From contig BCIK01000001.1 in assembly GCA_039545295.1 (NCBI GenBank), positions 372,001-436,000 of the forward strand: 64,000 bases of DNA, given 5' to 3'. Positions 30,822 through 59,311 of the stretch are shown one piece after another; position 1 is the first letter of the stretch; every line of letters starts with the position of its first letter. A program made the translations under genes and the position numbers. The DNA is from Udeniomyces pyricola. Its lineage: Eukaryota > Basidiomycota > Tremellomycetes > Cystofilobasidiales > Mrakiaceae. The notes beneath the pieces are model-generated. The model was not told the DNA's origin and searched no databases. It saw only the letters and a list, made by a program, of their open reading frames with translations.

Positions 30822-32349
30822 GCTCGTACAAATGTTCTCTCTTGTTGTCTCCCGTGCCATGCACCTCCCCTTATATAGCCTCACGTTATCGCGCCCGTCC
30901 GATTGCGGTGGCATTTTCCTCTATTCATTCCTTCTTCTTCTTCTTCTACTACTTATTTTTCTTCTCCTTTCTGTCTCGTCACTTGCATGCACACGGACAT
31001 TATGTTTCATTCCCATTCTTTGTCTGTCATTTCACTCTCTTATCTGGAACTCAATGTCATCACCAATAACGTTGTCTTTTACTTCTTTGATCATCACTCC
31101 TCGCATCTTCACTTCGCTTTGCTCCCCCCTTCCCCACTCAAGTTTTCTTTCTTCTTTCTGCTTTCCTCATGTCAACGCAATGGTCCGATGGTTTGTTGCG
31201 TGATCTGCCGTCTAAAATTCTCACGCCCTTGTTTCTATTGTTTCTTTCTTTCTTTTTTTTCTTCTTTACGTTTGTCCTCATTTTCTTGGTCTCTTTGCTT
31301 CGACACATATAAAGCATACGTTCTCGGTCGATTTGGCATGCAGTGGTGGGGAGGCATGATGGGCGAGGCGCTTGGAGGATGAAGACAAGGGAGATATGTG
31401 GTGTAGTGAGGATTGAATGATGTATAGATATATGTGTGTATGTGAATATGTATATATGTATGGGTTCGAGGATGTGAAGCGACGAACCGAAACGCGGAGT
31501 TGGACCGCGGACGAAATGAAGGGTGAGATGGAGGTGTTGTGTGGGTCCTAGATTATGCTCAGCCTGTTCTGGCCTCTCGTCAACTCTCCCAACCCCCCCC
31601 TCCCCCCCCCCTCTCTCTCTCTGTCTCCTTCCTCACCCCCTCCCATCCATCCTCCCCCCNNNNNNNNNNNNNNNNNNNNNNNNNNNNNNNNNNNNNNNNN
31701 NNNNNNNNNNNNNNNNNNNNNNNNNNNNNNNNNNNCGTAGAATTTACTTTTCAACTGATCTCTGTCAACCCCATCCATCCTCCCCCCCCCCCCCTCTCCT
31801 CGCTACCCTTTCGCATATCCTTCACTTCTCGTCATCTCGCCACCCCGCTCCCTTGCTTCAGCACTCCACAACCACACCCGTCAGTCCGCCGTTCTCTCCG
31901 ACGTTGCATGCGCCCAGGGTGCGCATGAGAGGGAGGAAAGGGGGAAAGAACGCCGTGCGAGGCGGAGGGGGCAAGACATAGAGGGTGGGAATACAGAGCG
32001 CGAGCGCAGTCTCAGAGATAGGGTAACCTCCCTCGCCCAAAGGTCGTTAGACCACGTGGGCCCGTCGGAAGGTTATCCAGTGCGAACTCTCCGATCGTCA
32101 GCCCTATCTTGGGTCGGTGCAAGCGAGGGAGACGGATGACACCGTCGACGATACCCGAGCGTTTGGGGCGAGGGGCGAGACAAGGGGGGGAGGGGGGGGG
32201 GGGAAGGAGAAGGAGAACGAGGGGTCCAGCGTCTCGTTTCTCTTCTTGAGTCCACTCGTTCTGCACTCTGGCCTTGTCTGTTTGGATCTAACGGTGTATC
32301 GCTTCTACTCGGCTGTTGTCCATGTTGTCATCTATAGATCTCCACCAAT
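30822..32349. other. Intergenic region with assembly gap
   Basis: It holds the 3' end of the PUF gene and the promoter of CDC42. Poly-pyrimidine sequence dominates 30900-31270. A gap of 76 N lies at 31660-31735 between two C-rich blocks. I see no supported gene. Confidence 0.6.
31660..31735. other. Assembly gap (76 N)
   Basis: A run of N flanked on both sides by almost the same C-rich sequence (CCCATCCATCCTCCCCCC). True length is unknown. Confidence 0.98.
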
Positions 32350-33813
32350 ATGCAGACCATCAAATGCGTGCGTCTTTTCGATTCTCATCTGTCGCCTTTG
32401 CGCGTGCCCGCCGCCTTCTGCCTTGCTTCCTCCTCCCCCCNCTCTCCNCCCCCCCCCCCCTTTTCGTCTGAACTGACCCAATCCCCTGGCCGCGCCTTGT
32501 CCTTTCCCCCTTCCCCCTCCTTCCATTGCACTTCGTCCCACTAGGTCGTCGTGAGTTTATCATGCCCTGTTGAATACAGAGTTGCACCCCAGACGAAATA
32601 TTCACGTTGATTCATCGTTGTGCATCACGCATCTTATCTCGCATCGTTAGGTCGGCGATGGAGCCGTCGGAAAGGTGAGAGCAACAACTCCCCCAGCCTG
32701 TCTCGTGGCTTGCTCCCTCTTGCTTTCTCTTCCTCCCTCTTATGGAAGCCGTACCGCTCACACGATCGCTCGCTATCATCTCCTTTACCTATAGACCTGC
32801 CTCCTTATCTCCTACACCACCAACGTAAGTCATTCCCTATGTCTCGTTAAGCATCAAAACCCCCATTGGTGTGTCTCGCGACTGACGACCGATCCTCGCT
32901 TGCATCTCCCGCTTCACAGAAAGTCAGTTCCCGCCGTTCCGGCAAGGCGTGCGAGCGCGAGCGATTGCGTTCAACACGTCCCTCTTCCTGCATCTTCATC
33001 CTCGCTGCTGTCTGCCTCTCCCCCCTCCATCCTGTCGACATACAACTGACCTCATGACAACTCTCTTAGTTCCCGAGCGAATACGTCCCGACCGTCTTTG
33101 ATAACTGTGCGTCGAACACTCTGCGCGATCATCGTCACATGCCCCATCTGATCGTGTTCAAAGCTCTGACTCTTTGATACTCTTGGGTCGGTCTTGACGC
33201 TTGTTCCCTAGATGCCGTCACCGTCATGATTGGAGAGGACCCATATACCCTTGGTCTTTTCGACACTGCTGGTTCGTCAATTGCTCGACGCGTTTCTGTT
33301 ATTTCAGAAGACGTCCGCTCAACTCCCGCTTCTGTTTCTCTTCCTCCTCCCTTCACTTTCCTACTCGGCGCACCTCTTTTCTTAATTCCGTCCCTTCCGT
33401 CTCGTTCTCACTCAACAGGACAAGAAGATTATGACCGACTCCGACCTCTCTCGTACCCCCAGACGGATGTCTTCCTTGTCTGCTTCTCGGTCACCTCGCC
33501 CGCGTCGTTTGAGAACGTCAAGGAGAAGTGGTTCCCTGAGGTTCACCACCACTGCCCGGGCGTGCCCTGCCTCATTGTCGGTACCCAGGTCGATTTGCGG
33601 GACGATCCGGCTGTGACCGAGAAGTTGGCCAAGCAGAAGCAGCGGCCCGTTCAGCACGACATGGGAGAGAAGCTGGCGAGGGAGCTCGGAGCCGTCAAGT
33701 ACGTCGAGTGCTCAGCCCTGACCCAGAAGGGTCTCAAGAATGTCTTTGACGAGGCCATCGTCGCTGCCCTGGAGCCGCCCGTGGTCAAGAAGAAGAAGTA
33801 AGTTTTTTTTATG

Positions 33814-33850
<37 letters not shown>

Positions 33851-33978
33851 TTCGTTTCTTCTCTCCTTTCGTTTTCGCTTTCGTCGAACGTCGCAAGCGA
33901 TCTGCTGCTAATCATTTGCTACTTGCACCTTGATCTCATTCCGTTTCTTCGCTCTTTAGGGGATGCATGATTCTGTAG
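32350..33978 (+). CDS. CDC42: Rho-family GTPase Cdc42
   Basis: Master polarity GTPase at the plasma membrane that controls actin, septins and morphogenesis. Nine exons: 32350-32367, 32545-32550 (6 nt), 32651-32674, 32795-32824, 32920-32922 (3 nt), 33070-33106, 33212-33271, 33419-33797 and 33960-33978. They sum to 576 nt, 191 residues plus stop, the canonical Cdc42 length. Visible elements: P-loop GDGAVGK then TCLLIS; switch [20 protein letters not shown]; switch [45 protein letters not shown]; polybasic KKKK; and a CMIL prenylation box. Two residues of the first beta strand and the switch-adjacent Lys depend on the microexons. The last intron starts with a poly-T run. The only uncertainty is whether the two tiny exons are always included. 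Confidence 0.96.
32545..32550 (+). other. 6-nt microexon of CDC42
   Basis: GTCGTC lies between acceptor CACTAG and donor GTGAGT. It supplies the two Val of M-Q-T-I-K-C-V-V-V-G-D-G. Without it the first beta strand leading to the P-loop loses two residues. Confidence 0.85.
32920..32922 (+). other. 3-nt microexon of CDC42 (single Lys codon)
   Basis: AAA lies between acceptor TTCACAG and donor GTCAGT. It inserts the Lys of T-T-N-K-F-P-S-E-Y, a position filled by Lys or Gln in Cdc42 proteins I know. Flanking introns would be 95 nt and 147 nt. Skipping it keeps frame but leaves a 190-residue protein. Confidence 0.75.
33816..33847 (+). repeat. Poly-T run in the last CDC42 intron
   Basis: A run of 32 T starts about 18 bases after the GTAAGT donor. 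Homopolymer length may be imprecise. Confidence 0.9.
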
Positions 33979-39508: not shown

Positions 39509-42500
39509 TCAAGCATTCTTCACATCGTCCAACATCTCCTTCAACGAATCCCACTCTGGCTCGTCCTCGAACGCATCCTTCGTGCGACCTAACGAAAGAA
39601 AAATTCACCAGCGTCGTCAGCAATCTAACCCTCCAGCTGGAACCCATGTGGAAATATAAAAGTATATAGATATGGATATGAACAAAAGAACAGCGATGGA
39701 ACTCACCCATAAAGGATCGAACGATACTCCTCGCCTGGAACTTCCAGTCCTTCCACGTGCTCTTCTCGCCAGCCTCGAGCGTCTTTTCTTCCTCGTCGAC
39801 CGCCTTGGGTCCAAGCGCAATGAGAGTGTCGACGACATCCCTCGTCTCTTCAACAGCTTCCCTCCATCGGTCCTTCTTCCTCTCAACGAGTTCGTCGTTG
39901 ACGACGCTCGCCCGATACGCCTTGACGTTGGCGTCAAGGGCGTCGGCGAATCGACCCTCCCAAAGAAGCAGTCGCGCCTGGGACTTGTAAATCCTCGACG
40001 AATCAGACAATCGGGGGAGGATGACCTGGTTGAACAGCCTCGTGAGTGGATGATGAAGTCCGATACCAGCGTTGGGAGAATGCGCCTCGTCCTTGGCGGC
40101 TTCCGAGCCAGGGGGCGGTCGGTTCGTAACGGCGCCGACGAGTCGATCAAGAACCTCCATGTCAATGCAATCTTCACCGTCCTTGGAGGCTCGCATCTCC
40201 ACTACCCGAGTCAACGCACGGCATGCCTCAGAGTTCTCGCCAAGATCGATGCAGACGAGAAGGTAATTGGACCACATTCGCCAATTCTCGTGGCCGTATT
40301 TGAGACCAATCTTGAGCGCTCGGTGAGCGAGAATCTTGTTTGCGTGCGGGATTCGGGGCGCTTCAGTGAGAGCAGGAGGAGCCTAAGGTAACAAAACAGG
40401 GTCAAGGACGTCAGCAATGAGGGATCGTCAGAACAGGCCGTCACGTGATAGATCGTACACACCTCCTCTTCTTTGGTGTCGGTGTGGGTCTCCTCCTCCT
40501 CCACATCGAGGCCGTCGTCTTCAATGGCACCAGCAGCTTCCTTCTTGAGTCCGTCCTATATGTAAAATAAAAAAGCATACAAAATGCACCAATATACAGG
40601 GGTCATATGAACATCTAGTTCCTGACCTTGCCGTCAAACTGACACGCAACAACAAGCATGCTCACTAGTCCACCAACGTCTCCCATACGAAGATAGCAGC
40701 TTGCGAGGTTGGCCCAGCCCTCAGCGTCGTCTTCCTCGATGGCGACGACTCGTCTGAAGCATCGAACGGCGTCCTTCCACTCCTCGCGCTTGACGTAGGC
40801 ACAGCCGAGAATGAACCAGGAGCGAGAGAAGAGCGGATTGATGGCGAGAGCGGCCTCGAAAAAGGGAATCGATTCGGCAAATTGAGAAGTCGCAAAGAGG
40901 GTTCCCGCAATCGATCGAGCCGCTCGGGAGGAGGTCTTGTTGGACTCTGTACAAAGAAGGGAAAGAGTTTGAACGTTGAAGTAAGCTTGTGGGGTTTGGT
41001 CTTGCTCAGAGAAGTCAACATGACGCAAGAACGCATCGAACATACCTTCCCAAGCCTGAGTGTAGAGCTCGAGCTTTCTGTCCTGCAACAGGTCACCGAG
41101 CATGCAGAGCAGGTTCGACTTTCGGGCGACCGACATTCTTGTACGGTGTCGCTCTGAAGGAGCAGCGGGACCGGTTCGAGCGAGGGTGATGACACGTGCC
41201 TCTTCGACAAGCTTGCCGTCGAGAAGCGAGTTGACAATACCGAGAGCTTTTTCGGGTTGTTCGAGTTGCTGCAGAGAGGGAAAGGCGGAAGGGGAAGGGG
41301 GGGGGGGATCAGGGGGACAAGAAGAAGAAGGAAGTTGCCAACGTATCAGCTGCTTGAATCCAAGTAGATATTCTGAAGCGAGTAAATTACTCGTCACAGA
41401 CAAAGAAGCCGATGACTCACTTGGTAGCATGAGACGACCTGATTCCACATCTCGAGCCTCTCGTATATTTCGAGAGCGCTTCTCAGGACACCGATGCTAA
41501 CAAGACGCTCGGCAAGCTCCTTCTCAAGGTCCCACTTGCTTGGGACGACCAAGCTCCAAAAGAAGCGAAGTCGCTCCTGGGCATTGGCGATGCCCTTGGC
41601 GTTGCTGTCTTCGTTGAGCGGAATTTGATCGACGAGCGCCTGGAGCTGAAGGACGGATCGCTCGACAGTTCGCGTTCGATTCGCCTCGCCACGCGATCGA
41701 AGAAGGAGAGCGGTCGTGTGAATCGACCAGTTTTGAGGTGAGGAGAGGACGAGAGCCGTGAAAGGGGTCGTCTGGGAGGTCGAGATGACCGAGGTTGGAA
41801 GGTTGGCTTGAATGAGGGGGAAAGAAAGGAGGTGAGTCTGATCGAGCGGATGAAGGGGAGGATGGTTTGCCGGATCGATGGTCTGGAGCAGAGAGGTAGC
41901 CGGAGTAGTCGGGTGAGGGGTACCAGATGAAGTGTAAAGAGTCTGCTCAAGCAATGTGTCGTCGTTGAGGGCCAACGTCTCGGGGACCTGGGCGGTGGAC
42001 GGAGCTGCGGCGGCGATCTCGCTGCTGCTGGACTTCTCTTCACTACCTCCTTCGATGCCGACCTCTTCGGAAGACGTGGCCGGAACCCAACCTTCTCGCT
42101 CACGGCCTCGGGCGACGACAACGAGCTGGCCAATGTCATTCTGCTGGAATTTGGTCCTCCTGCCCATGGCTCCCGTAAGCTCCCACTCTAGCTCCGATTC
42201 GTTCTTGGCCGCTTTGATGAACCAAGCACTAGCCTCCTTGTCCGATCCGAGGAGAAGATGATAGCTGAGACCAATCTCAAGGGAGAGCTTGGCTCGAAGA
42301 TCTCGCTGGCTCGCGTCGTTTGGGAGCAGGCGCGACGAGGAAAGAAGCTCGATGGCCGCTGGCAGGGCCGACTCCGGAAGGGGTAGTGGCGCAGTGAGGA
42401 TGAGAACTTGGTGATGAGCTCGGATCGCTCGGAGCGTCCACCAGGGGACAGACTCGAGGTTTTTAAACGAGGCAAGCGAGCGGAAGAGGATGAGAGCAAG

Positions 42501-43001
42501 TCGAAGGAAAGTCGGGTTCTGGGCGAGGTGATACGCGGGCTCGCCGAGGTAGGAGAGGGCCGAGTTGGACGAGTTGTCAAGGTCAAGCGCAGTAACTTCC
42601 GAGCCAAATGACTGAGTGGATGAAGAGAAGAGGTCAAGCGAGGTGAGGGGGATGCTGGGACCGGTCCAGTTGAGCTGAACGAACGACTGGAGAAGGGCAA
42701 TGGCGACCGAGAGCACGGCGAGCTCCCATTCCGTTTGGTTGAGTTGGCTCTCGGCTGGAACTGCGGACGGGACAGCAAGCCGACTCTCTAAATCGAATTG
42801 GGCATCGTCCGAGTCATCTGACGCGGGCTGAAGGGTAAGAACAGTGCGAGCAAGGGGCGAGGAGAGGACGTCGAGATAGCGGGCTTGGGCGGCGTGATCG
42901 GCGAGGGTGTAGGCCGTGGACTCGGTGTTGTAGGTGATGGATTGAGAAGAGAGAAGGGATCGCTCTGCTTGGATCAAGAGAGATGAAGGATCGGCAGTCA
43001 T
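39509..43001 (-). CDS. TTC27: TPR protein of the TTC27/Emw1 family
   Basis: Yeast Emw1 is an essential TPR protein needed for cell-wall integrity; human TTC27 is the counterpart. The start at 43001 gives MTADPSSLLIQAERSLLSSQ. The N-terminal helical region contains ELAVLSVAIALLQSFVQLNW, WWTLRAIRAHHQ and GLSYHLLLGSDKEASAWFIK. TPR repeats lie towards the C-terminus, e.g. FFEAALAINPLFSRSWFILG, CAYVKREEWKDAVRCFRR and EGWANLASCYLRMGD, then NYLLVCIDLGENSEACRALT. The final exon (RTKDAFEDEPEWDSLKEML, ending DDVKNA) stops at 39511-39509. The frame stays open upstream of 43001, so a longer N-terminus cannot be excluded, but the Met chosen agrees with the family start. It is divergent from the acidic-protein gene. 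Confidence 0.88.
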
Positions 43002-43362
43002 GGTGTTGACGGAGCCGATGGATGAAGGTAAAGGTGGTCGTTGGGGGGGTGGGAGGGGAGCAAAGGGAGCAGGGGCAGGAAGTCCAAAGACAAAAGACTG
43101 ATGGAACCTGGAGCTTGGAGGATGGAAACTCGTGAATAATCGATAATCTTGGTCAGCGCCTTCGGCCTCACGCGACTCGCCTGGTTCCTCACAAAGCTGT
43201 GCTTTCGTGCCATTGCTGTACATGATCATCCAGACAGATCCAGCTTCCATCGACGTCCAGCCTTGCTTGCTATCACTCCTTACCACAGTATCACCCTCAT
43301 CTCATCCACACGTTTTCTTTCCCTCACACTTCCCCGAACGTCATTCGACCCAACCATCGACA
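43002..43362. promoter_or_regulatory. Divergent promoter, TTC27 (-) and acidic protein (+)
   Basis: A 361-base shared upstream region. I see no specific motif that I can name. Confidence 0.5.
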
Positions 43363-56985: not shown

Positions 56986-59311
56986 TCAGGCCTGAACCCA
57001 GCTCCCGTCCATGCCGTTGTAGCTAGAGGTGTCCTCGCTGGGAGAGCTGTCGGTGTCGACGTCACCCTCATCAGATGATTCGCCAGCGTCCACCACAGGG
57101 ACCGTGTTTTGTGTCGCGGCTGGCTTGGGCAATTTCTGAGATGCAACGACCTGGGCCTCTTTCTGGCGAGCAGCCGCGGCTTCTCCAGCAGCTTGAGCGG
57201 CAGGAGACTTGACAGGTGATCGAGATGCGACCTTAGCAGGGGTCGAATGAGGGAGTTGGTCTTTGGTCGAAGAAAGGATACGGCTAAGGAGAGCCGATGG
57301 AATAAGTGGTCGGATGTAGGCGTATGTCCAAGCTGAAACGTCGTACGGAGAAGAGCAAGACATGATGCGAATGGATGGAAGGAAAGGAATTCATGTCGAT
57401 AACAGTGTCAATAAGACTGCAGCACAATATGACCCAACTCATGAAAATGATGAGATGAAATACGTACATCCGGCTCCAACGCGTGAGGTACTGAGGGTAC
57501 CCATCCAGTTTCCTCTCGTGACAGCCCCGTATACGTTCCTCTCAAGCACCTCAAACCCACTGGGCTTCCTTGATCCGTACACCCAGCTCAAGAACCAGTC
57601 GATGATTCGAACGCCGGCGACTTTGATCGCCTCAAAGTTTCTAGGCAAAGACCTCTTGACAGGCGATATGAGACCAACTTCCATCATCTGTACCTCGATA
57701 CGGGCTGCGGCGTCGCCCTTGGTCTTACGGGTATCGTCAATTTCTTGGGCCAACGCAGCGAATGCCGTTCGGACCGTCTTAGATGACACATGGTTCGCCG
57801 AGAGCCCAGGAGGAGAGATGTTGCCGGTCGATGGAACCATGACGATGATTTTTTTAGTGACGGATGAGGTGGTATATCTATGCCTCTTGGCTGCAAGCGC
57901 GCTCGAGCGTAGCGAACTAGGGACGAAAGACGCCGGAAGCGGATCGGAGAGAACTGGCAGCAGCTGTGTGATGATGGAAAGTGGCGTCTTGAGCGCGATT
58001 TGAACATCATTGGAGGTATGAGTTGCAGGCGAGGGGATGGGAAGGGAGAGCAAGGAGATGATTGAGCAGATGATTGGTTGAATTGACGATGGAGATGCAA
58101 ATGGATCGCCTGGTTAGATCAGGAAGGGGTAAGAGGCGGTGTTAGGGTCGGATCGTCAACCTCATAGATGATTTCAGTGTTCTCGGAAAGACGTTGCTTA
58201 CCCGCCGAGTGAAAGGGGACTCGGAGAGTCAGCGTGTCGCGCAATGTCCGAACAAAGGAATCAATGCCGTTTGCCTACCGAACGCCAATTCAATCGAGAC
58301 TGGTCAGAACAGGACGTCATAAAGGAGAGGACGTTGCTCCATAAATACACTCACATTCTCTGGATCCAAAACAAGTGCCTTGATAAAGCCACCCTTAGAT
58401 TGTTCTTCGAGCGAGGCAGCCGCCTTCTTGGACGAGACGGACGCAAAGACGATGAAGCCGGCCGACTCACTGCAAGGATAGCCCATAGAACCGAGCAAAT
58501 AACGCGAACGCCAGTCAGCATGACGCTTGTCAAATCTCCCCAGCGGATGGACTTCAGGATCTTACAGATAAAGAGCCAAAGGGAAACCAAGGGGTGTAGC
58601 ATCCGCCCCGAGAAGTACTACAGAGAGAAGGGGCAACGGTTAAGAGAAGGATCAGCTGCCCATCCTTCGGACCCAACCGGGACGTACCCGGAGACCTTTG
58701 CTTGGCTGCTAACGCACCGATGACTTCAACCCGATGGCCATCTCGCATAAGGGGTCTACTGAGAGATCGATTCATCTCCTTTGTGTCCCGGATGGCCTGA
58801 AGCGCTCTGTCGGAGACGAGCGATTGTCCTTGGGCGATCTTAGACCAAACCCGTCTGCGCTGCTCGGGCCCGATAGTGATAGCGCCAATGCCAATCGCAG
58901 CGATAGCGAGAGCAGGTCCGCCGACGGTGTACGGATGTTGTCGAACGAACGATTCAGACCGGGCGTAGAGGTCTGAGGCGTAGGCCATTGACGTCACAGG
59001 GGGAGGAGGTGGTGGCGGGGGCGGAGGTAGGTTGGCGGTAGTCGGAAGATCCTTAATGTAGATACGGACAAGCTCGCCTAAGAAGGTATACACCAGGGAT
59101 GAATGCATATGATGAACATGATGAGTTGATTTCATGTATACTTGCGACCAGGTGGGACACTTGGACAAGACGATATGAAGGGGGCAGGAGAAGTATGCGA
59201 ACGGATAGAAGAGGTCGATTCCTCGACTTGATCGTAAAGTAGGTACGCGAACGATGTGGCCTCGTGAGGGAGGGCTGAGATGTGAGCGGCGACGTCGTCG
59301 AGGAGAGGCAT
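56986..59311 (-). CDS. DUF1776-family protein (Rossmann-like, probable membrane anchor)
   Basis: Fungal family of unknown function related to short-chain dehydrogenases. The start at 59311 gives MPLLDDVAAHISALPHEATS, then RELVRIYIKDLPTTANL and a Pro run (P10). A hydrophobic helix follows (YTVGGPALAIAAIGIGAITI), so membrane anchoring is likely. The Rossmann-like part is HRVEVIVLLGADATPLGFPL, ALYLESAGFIVFASVSSKKA and SKGGFIKALVLDPEN. Later blocks include KKIIVMVPSTGNISPPGLS and KTVRTAFAALAQEID (like the SDR Ser and helix region), EVQMMEVGLISPVKRSLP, and a low-complexity acidic C-terminus ending GMDGSWVQA at 56986. No intact YxxxK catalytic pair is obvious. Many small exons, one about 45 nt. A mitochondrial site is my recollection for the yeast relative, not shown here. 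Confidence 0.8.

Follow-up and report, generated by a model that had tools for sequence, protein, structure and literature searches.

A probable three-nucleotide CDC42 exon in Udeniomyces pyricola, a fungus with many predicted tiny exons

Judged from the sequence, the trinucleotide AAA at positions 32920–32922 is very probably a genuine, constitutive coding exon of CDC42 that is handled by the ordinary spliceosome, intron by intron. The window, that is the whole 64,000 nt stretch of Udeniomyces pyricola DNA analysed, belongs to an assembly of 25.0 Mb in 38 contigs. Within it, CDC42 occupies 32350–33978 on the + strand in nine exons, with 576 nt of coding sequence including the stop, and yields 191 residues with a C-terminal CMIL. 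The earlier note on this DNA had proposed a nine-exon model that reaches 191 residues only with AAA as an exon, and the same model was re-derived by translation and spliced alignment. Beyond that note, CDC42 exon 2 is only 6 nt long, and tiny exons recur in the genome.

All nine exons lie on the + strand. Exon 1 (32350–32367; 18 nt coding, MQTIKC) was placed by translation and spliced alignment, and exon 2 (32545–32550) is the 6-nt microexon GTCGTC, encoding Val-Val, for which translation, spliced alignment, enumeration of readings and shuffles were all used. Exon 3 (32651–32674) encodes VGDGAVGK, the P-loop, and is followed by the 30 nt of exon 4 (32795–32824). Exon 5 is the 3-nt microexon AAA, encoding Lys27, placed by alignment, enumeration and shuffles. 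Exon 6 (33070–33106) carries switch I as 12 residues plus a T; like exon 3, exon 7 (33212–33271) and exon 8 (33419–33797; 379 nt), it was read by spliced translation. Exon 9 (33960–33978) holds the end of the CAAX tail and the TAG stop. The spliced aligner was a protein-to-genome program written for the purpose, and the query was the Cdc42 of Ceraceosorus guamensis (P0002), to which the protein is 94 % identical. Identical sets of nine exons were returned at intron penalties of −3, −6, −9 and −12; at −15 the 3-nt exon and exon 9 are omitted, and at −20 exons 1 and 2 are omitted as well.

By closest sequence, the predicted protein is Cdc42, not Rac or Rho. The best solved chains are those of Cdc42 (1grn_A, E 1.5e-107, residues 1–191), with the best Rac1 chain at E 8.1e-91, and the NCBIfam match is TIGR00231 small_GTP (E 3.5e-39). 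Guanine-nucleotide motifs and the Rho-family switch I are present in the spliced translation. The CMIL completed by exon 9 is a CAAX box. A run of Ns at 31660–31735 lies upstream of the gene, and single Ns occur at 32441 and 32448 (intron 1), beside C-rich stretches. Elsewhere in the window, a TTC27-like gene lies on the minus strand (reading frame 41394–43286); its protein matches a Logan protein (100 % over 82 %) and a JGI metagenome protein (79 %), and in the 120 matches listed, those that carry a name come from basidiomycete fungi, at about 41–48 % identity.

The AAA exon is bounded on the 5′ side by the acceptor CTTCACAG, the sequence before it reading ...CTCCCGCTTCACAG, and on the 3′ side by the donor GTCAGT. 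Ranked against 86 training introns, intron 4 (32825–32919, + strand; 95 nt, GTAAGT...CACAG) has its donor at the 81st percentile and its acceptor at the 50th, and intron 5 (32923–33069, + strand; 147 nt, GTCAGT...CTTAG) has its donor at the 67th and its acceptor at the 26th. Splice-site weights were taken from 86 self-modelled introns (<600 nt, flanking exons of at least 20 nt), leaving out the sites under test. The two sites that touch AAA, at the 50th and 67th percentiles, are thus of ordinary strength for this genome, as strong as its normal sites; GTCAGT itself opens 8 of the 86 training introns. The commonest 5-mer near the 3′ ends of the training introns is CTGAC (26/86), and introns 4 and 5 contain one such branch-point-like motif each, at 32882–32886 and 33046–33050, both on the + strand; the A of the first, at 32885, lies 34 nt ahead of its AG, and that of the second, at 33049, lies 20 nt ahead. 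The description of the flanking sites as acceptable in the earlier note is therefore borne out by their strength, by the recovery of the same exons in alignment and by the shuffles described below.

One- and two-intron readings of the stretch between exons 4 and 6 were enumerated, allowing GT or GC as the donor, a minimum intron length of 50 nt, a middle exon of at most 30 nt and exact flanks. AAA is the sole reading that gives Lys, with a summed site score of 27.2; a different site supplying the Lys, which the earlier note had considered, was not found among these readings. Obtaining Lys27 from a longer exon 4 or a longer exon 6 is impossible, the former reading GTA (Val) and the latter TAG (stop). 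The other two-intron readings give Val-Ser (14.4) and Ser (14.3), and the skipped one-intron reading, which is in frame, scores 13.4 as a sum of two sites only. The Ser reading corresponds to an overlapping exon TCA at 32924–32926, with acceptor AAAG and donor GTTCCC, and is allowed by the sequence and in frame. Nevertheless, its score is about half that of AAA, the G at +5 and T at +6 found in the donor consensus of this genome are missing from its donor, and Ser occupies position 27 in none of 199 homologues, which makes it scarcely credible as the source of the residue. For exon 2, the 6-nt reading has the top score among five two-intron readings.

A closely spaced AG and GT also recalls recursive splicing, in which 32920 would be not an exon but a ratchet point (a zero-length exon), and removal in two steps is expected in any case. 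In a recursive site, however, the AG must abut the GT, and here the three bases AAA lie between them. Recursive sites are described in long introns, and the present stretch of only 245 nt is far from that; the chance that 32920 is such a point is negligible.

The AAA exon was also compared with chance. Not one of 20000 dinucleotide shuffles of 32825–33069 contained an AG-Lys-GT exon whose two sites matched those of AAA in strength, and an equally good 3-nt exon with any codon occurred at a fraction of 0.0003. A scan of 324,040 strand-bases (the window plus loci L017–L036, both strands) returned one equally good site of any codon, which is the AAA exon itself since the window contains it. No such site was present, even at 10th-percentile site strength, in the 28,075 bases of 102 further modelled introns (each at least 113 nt long, leaving out L019 and the two introns under test). 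In a second set of shuffles, a Lys exon of any strength appeared in 22/5000, one as good in 0/5000 and an equally good exon for any residue in 5/5000. Because a Lys exon of any strength turns up in 22 of 5000, codon and frame alone are the weaker evidence and site strength carries the case. Taken together, frame and residue fit the conserved protein beyond chance. For exon 2, neither an exact match of any strength nor an equally good exon with any residue was seen in 5000 shuffles.

Position 27 is filled in 199/199 fetched homologues: K in 154, Q in 40, A in 2, and V, R and T in 1 each. The suggestion in the earlier note that AAA restores a conserved residue is in keeping with this count. What these homologues show to be conserved is the encoded residue, as read from proteins. 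The 199 distinct homologues are the overlapping best 120 of 6147 and best 120 of 6474 matches, the latter from a search with the Lys-less (exon-skipped) protein, a query that should favour Lys-less proteins. No Lys-less Cdc42 was found among the best 120 of those 6474 matches. The database consists of 90 % clusters, so a copy from the same species, if any, would be hidden. Scans for related fungal CDC42 DNA gave no match in viral contigs and, in genome contigs, 8 loci under bacterial titles with no related fungal DNA. Seven of these (L009–L015), on contigs titled as Robiginitomaculum, Maricaulis or Marinicaulis MAGs, are uninterrupted Rac/Cdc42-like genes, 50–59 % identical to the Cdc42 studied here, with no CAAX tail found within 30 residues beyond the end of the match; they may represent transfer from a eukaryote, or contamination. 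The other (L016, 5001–5715, contig titled Verrucomicrobiaceae MAG) is a Rac gene with four modelled introns of 38–40 nt and a CSIL tail, and is probably eukaryotic contamination of that MAG.

Two RAC paralogues in the same genome, RAC-A (L026) and RAC-B (L033), have introns at the same places as both borders of CDC42 exon 4, within GK|T and at N26|27. The exon following the N26|27 intron is 9 nt long and encodes Ala-Phe-Pro in both RACs, and encodes Lys alone in CDC42. The next CDC42 intron, K27|F28, is absent from the four other Rho-family genes modelled. From these positions, the N26|27 intron may be older than the CDC42/RAC split, or may have been gained in parallel.

These observations bear on an alternative reading, that there is no exon at 32920 and that 32825–33069 is one 245-nt intron, leaving a 190-residue Cdc42 that lacks Lys27. 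A single GT-AG intron is possible there and is in frame. Against it, residue 27 is present in every homologue fetched, no equally good Lys exon arose in the 20000 shuffles, the stretch contains two branch-point-like motifs, and its left boundary is an intron position found in both RACs, where a tiny exon likewise follows. A single intron is accordingly a highly improbable reading.

Even smaller exons are predicted among the paralogues. Two candidate 2-nt exons were modelled in RAC-B (L033; G000:C15:526000-531000, minus strand): GT, which falls within the Cys6 codon, and AT, which falls within the Asp codon of TKLD. In each case no one-intron reading fits, and only one two-intron reading keeps the conserved protein. 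Of the introns flanking the GT exon, one lies at the position of the first RAC-A intron and the other at that of the first CDC42 intron. The donors around the two exons are weak (6th to 17th percentile), and these are the least sure of the tiny exons modelled. In the model of a RHO1-like gene (L025; G000:C4:782500-787000, minus strand), two phase-1 introns immediately ahead of the P-loop enclose a 3-nt exon, TCG. Its skipping would also be in frame, and the intron upstream of it is weak (donor 21st, acceptor 19th percentile).

Further tiny exons were modelled in RAB11 (5 nt), cyclophilin (5 nt) and RAN (7 nt). The RAB11-like gene (L019; G000:C1:289000-294000, minus strand) has the 5-nt exon CAACC. 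The first spliced-alignment result for this gene, a 1-nt exon with weak donors (5th percentile), was dropped. When all exons of 1–14 nt were scanned in this stretch, 20 readings were obtained, of which one, CAACC with donor GTAAGT, scores best in the enumeration and gives the KSNLL of Rab11.

The second set of shuffles, 5000 each, also covered these cases. An equally good exact match arose once for each RAC-B 2-nt exon and once for the RHO1 exon, and not at all for RAB11, for any of the three 9-nt exons (two in RAC-A, one in RAC-B) or for either CDC42 microexon. Exact matches of any strength numbered 159 and 47 for the RAC-B 2-nt exons, 92 for RHO1, 27 for RAB11, 1 for RAC-A exon 2, 1 for the RAC-B 9-nt exon and 0 for RAC-A exon 5. 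Exons of the same strength with any residue numbered 47 and 9 for the RAC-B 2-nt exons, 19 for the RAC-B 9-nt exon, 5 for RHO1, 43 for RAB11 and 60 and 3 for RAC-A. Given these any-residue counts, support for the RAC-B and RAB11 exons and for exon 2 of RAC-A depends on frame and on the residues that are expected there.

The density of introns was estimated from a census of conserved genes. From 68 modelled loci plus CDC42, 10 repeats of the same gene were removed by hand, and genes with <100 aligned residues or <50 % identity to the query were then removed, leaving 20. The models of the other loci are self-made and uncurated, from human or fungal queries. Over their 11.0 kb of coding sequence the 20 genes have 126 introns, or 11.5 per kb, and 10 of their 106 internal exons are at most 9 nt, 17 at most 15 nt and 38 at most 30 nt. 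RAB11 was removed by the census rule and its 5-nt exon stands outside the 10 of 106. Median intron length is 162.5 (140 modelled introns). The actin gene (L037; G000:C8, around 57161–57727) has 14 introns and internal exons down to 11 nt. Present-day mean densities per kb given in a published survey (PMC8476143) are 3.93 for Chytridiomycota, 3.28 for Agaricomycotina and 2.80 for Pucciniomycotina; the value found here exceeds the highest group means for fungi in that survey about threefold, although the gene sets differ and the comparison is a pointer rather than a measurement. On balance we lean towards a broader view, in which nuclear exons of 2–9 nt are routine in the conserved genes of this genome, the two 2-nt exons of RAC-B and the 3-nt exon of RHO1 are the smallest fungal spliceosomal exons known to us and among the smallest anywhere, and intron density is roughly threefold that of the highest fungal group means.

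Whether AAA is always included is a separate matter from whether it is an exon. The earlier note had suggested that skipping would leave the protein in frame, and that inclusion could therefore be a regulated choice. The first part stands, and the limits on the case should be read with it: the downstream acceptor is at the 26th percentile, and the skipped mRNA is in frame, so frame does not force inclusion. If the exon were real but alternative, the cell would use an in-frame Cdc42 without Lys27, joined through the outer sites GTAAGT and CTTAG. The next residue, F28, contacts the guanine base, so that a Cdc42 one residue shorter might be unstable or show rapid nucleotide exchange. A literature search on Cdc42/Rac specificity at residues 27 and 30 turned up no report. 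RAC1 F28L is described as fast-cycling (PMC9029563, in the portion cited), so the place is sensitive, and Ras H27G is described as raising nucleotide release (PMC5538825, likewise in part), Ras 27 corresponding to Cdc42 27 by sequence reading. An alternative 3-nt exon is described in Drosophila hth in the cited part of PMC7392893. Regulation of the CDC42 exon, the second part of the suggestion, is nonetheless unsupported: no fetched homologue lacks residue 27, the search with the skipped protein returned no such form in its best 120 of 6474 matches, and the inner sites score like ordinary ones. Tiny size alone is no sign of regulation either, given that five modelled tiny exons (2, 2, 5, 5 and 7 nt) break the frame if skipped. 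An alternative exon is on these grounds very unlikely. Constitutive inclusion of AAA is probable since its sites are ordinary, the residue is kept in all fetched homologues and five other tiny exons are frame-breaking if skipped.

The constitutive exon would arise from two ordinary GT-AG introns, 95 and 147 nt long, that lie three bases apart, and would supply Lys27 at the start of switch I. Splicing would proceed by intron definition, one intron and then the other, which seems likeliest because 3 nt gives no room for the machineries of the 3′ and 5′ sites together. Removal of the first intron would make AAA part of a longer exon, after which the other intron could be spliced normally. The exon would be one of many of 2–9 nt here, with probably no role beyond coding.

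The 3-nt exon of NCAM is an alternative exon. Drosophila homothorax micro-Ex8 (PMC7392893) and NCAM (PMC8042270), in the portions of those reports cited, resemble the CDC42 exon in being three bases, the length of one codon, between two introns, whereas gene, kingdom and site in the protein differ. The hth exon is described as alternative in the cited part of PMC7392893; in CDC42 nothing points to regulation. The earlier note took three bases to be at the lower limit for spliceosomes, which is contradicted by the constitutive 1-nt exon of Arabidopsis APC11, for which intron definition combined with stepwise removal is suggested in PMC4674806, and sits poorly with the candidate 2-nt exons of RAC-B. 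Like CDC42, APC11 and the plant microexons of 1–15 nt involve tiny exons in conserved genes; the plant ones are usually included and often missed by annotation (PMC4674806, PMC8831610, both cited in part). Those plant exons have RNA-seq and RT-PCR support, whereas the CDC42 exon is predicted from the logic of the sequence.

Among fungi, the P450 genes of Phanerochaete chrysosporium share with CDC42 a basidiomycete host and very short coding exons, the shortest being 6 bp in the cited portion of PMC1184071; the exons described here are shorter, at 3 nt (candidate 2 nt), and lie in small GTPases and other conserved genes. The Xlr2 gene of Trichoderma virens likewise has a fungal microexon, yet there inclusion accompanies low glucose and yields a DNA-binding domain (PMC11121469), and no such regulation is seen for CDC42. 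Fungal mitochondrial exons of 1 nt and 3 bp (PMC12308204, cited portion) are alike in that 1–3 nt lie between neighbouring introns, but the mitochondrial 1-nt exon is flanked by group II introns according to that portion, whereas the CDC42 introns are nuclear GT-AG introns. Among the top matches of a microexon literature search, drawn mostly from outside subscription journals, no report of a nuclear fungal exon of <6 nt was found. The kind of exon is thus known, at 3 nt in animals, 1 nt in plants and 6 bp in a basidiomycete; what looks new is where this one lies and how many of them a single fungus has.

A 3-nt exon in a highly conserved protein offers a clean test of how the spliceosome deals with exons too short for exon definition. 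With cases of 2, 3, 5, 6 and 7 nt in one genome, the order of intron removal and the sequence needs become directly comparable. Gene predictors with a minimum exon length would delete Lys27 from CDC42 or break the frame of other genes, and such genomes may be mis-annotated, as the cited part of PMC8831610 describes for plant microexons. A one-residue exon beside switch I is also an easy way to ask whether Lys27 is ever left out. If skipping occurred, it would give a Cdc42 product without the residue beside F28, possibly an over-active or unstable switch. The AAA exon probably reflects the normal splicing of a fungus very rich in introns, and not a dedicated regulatory device.
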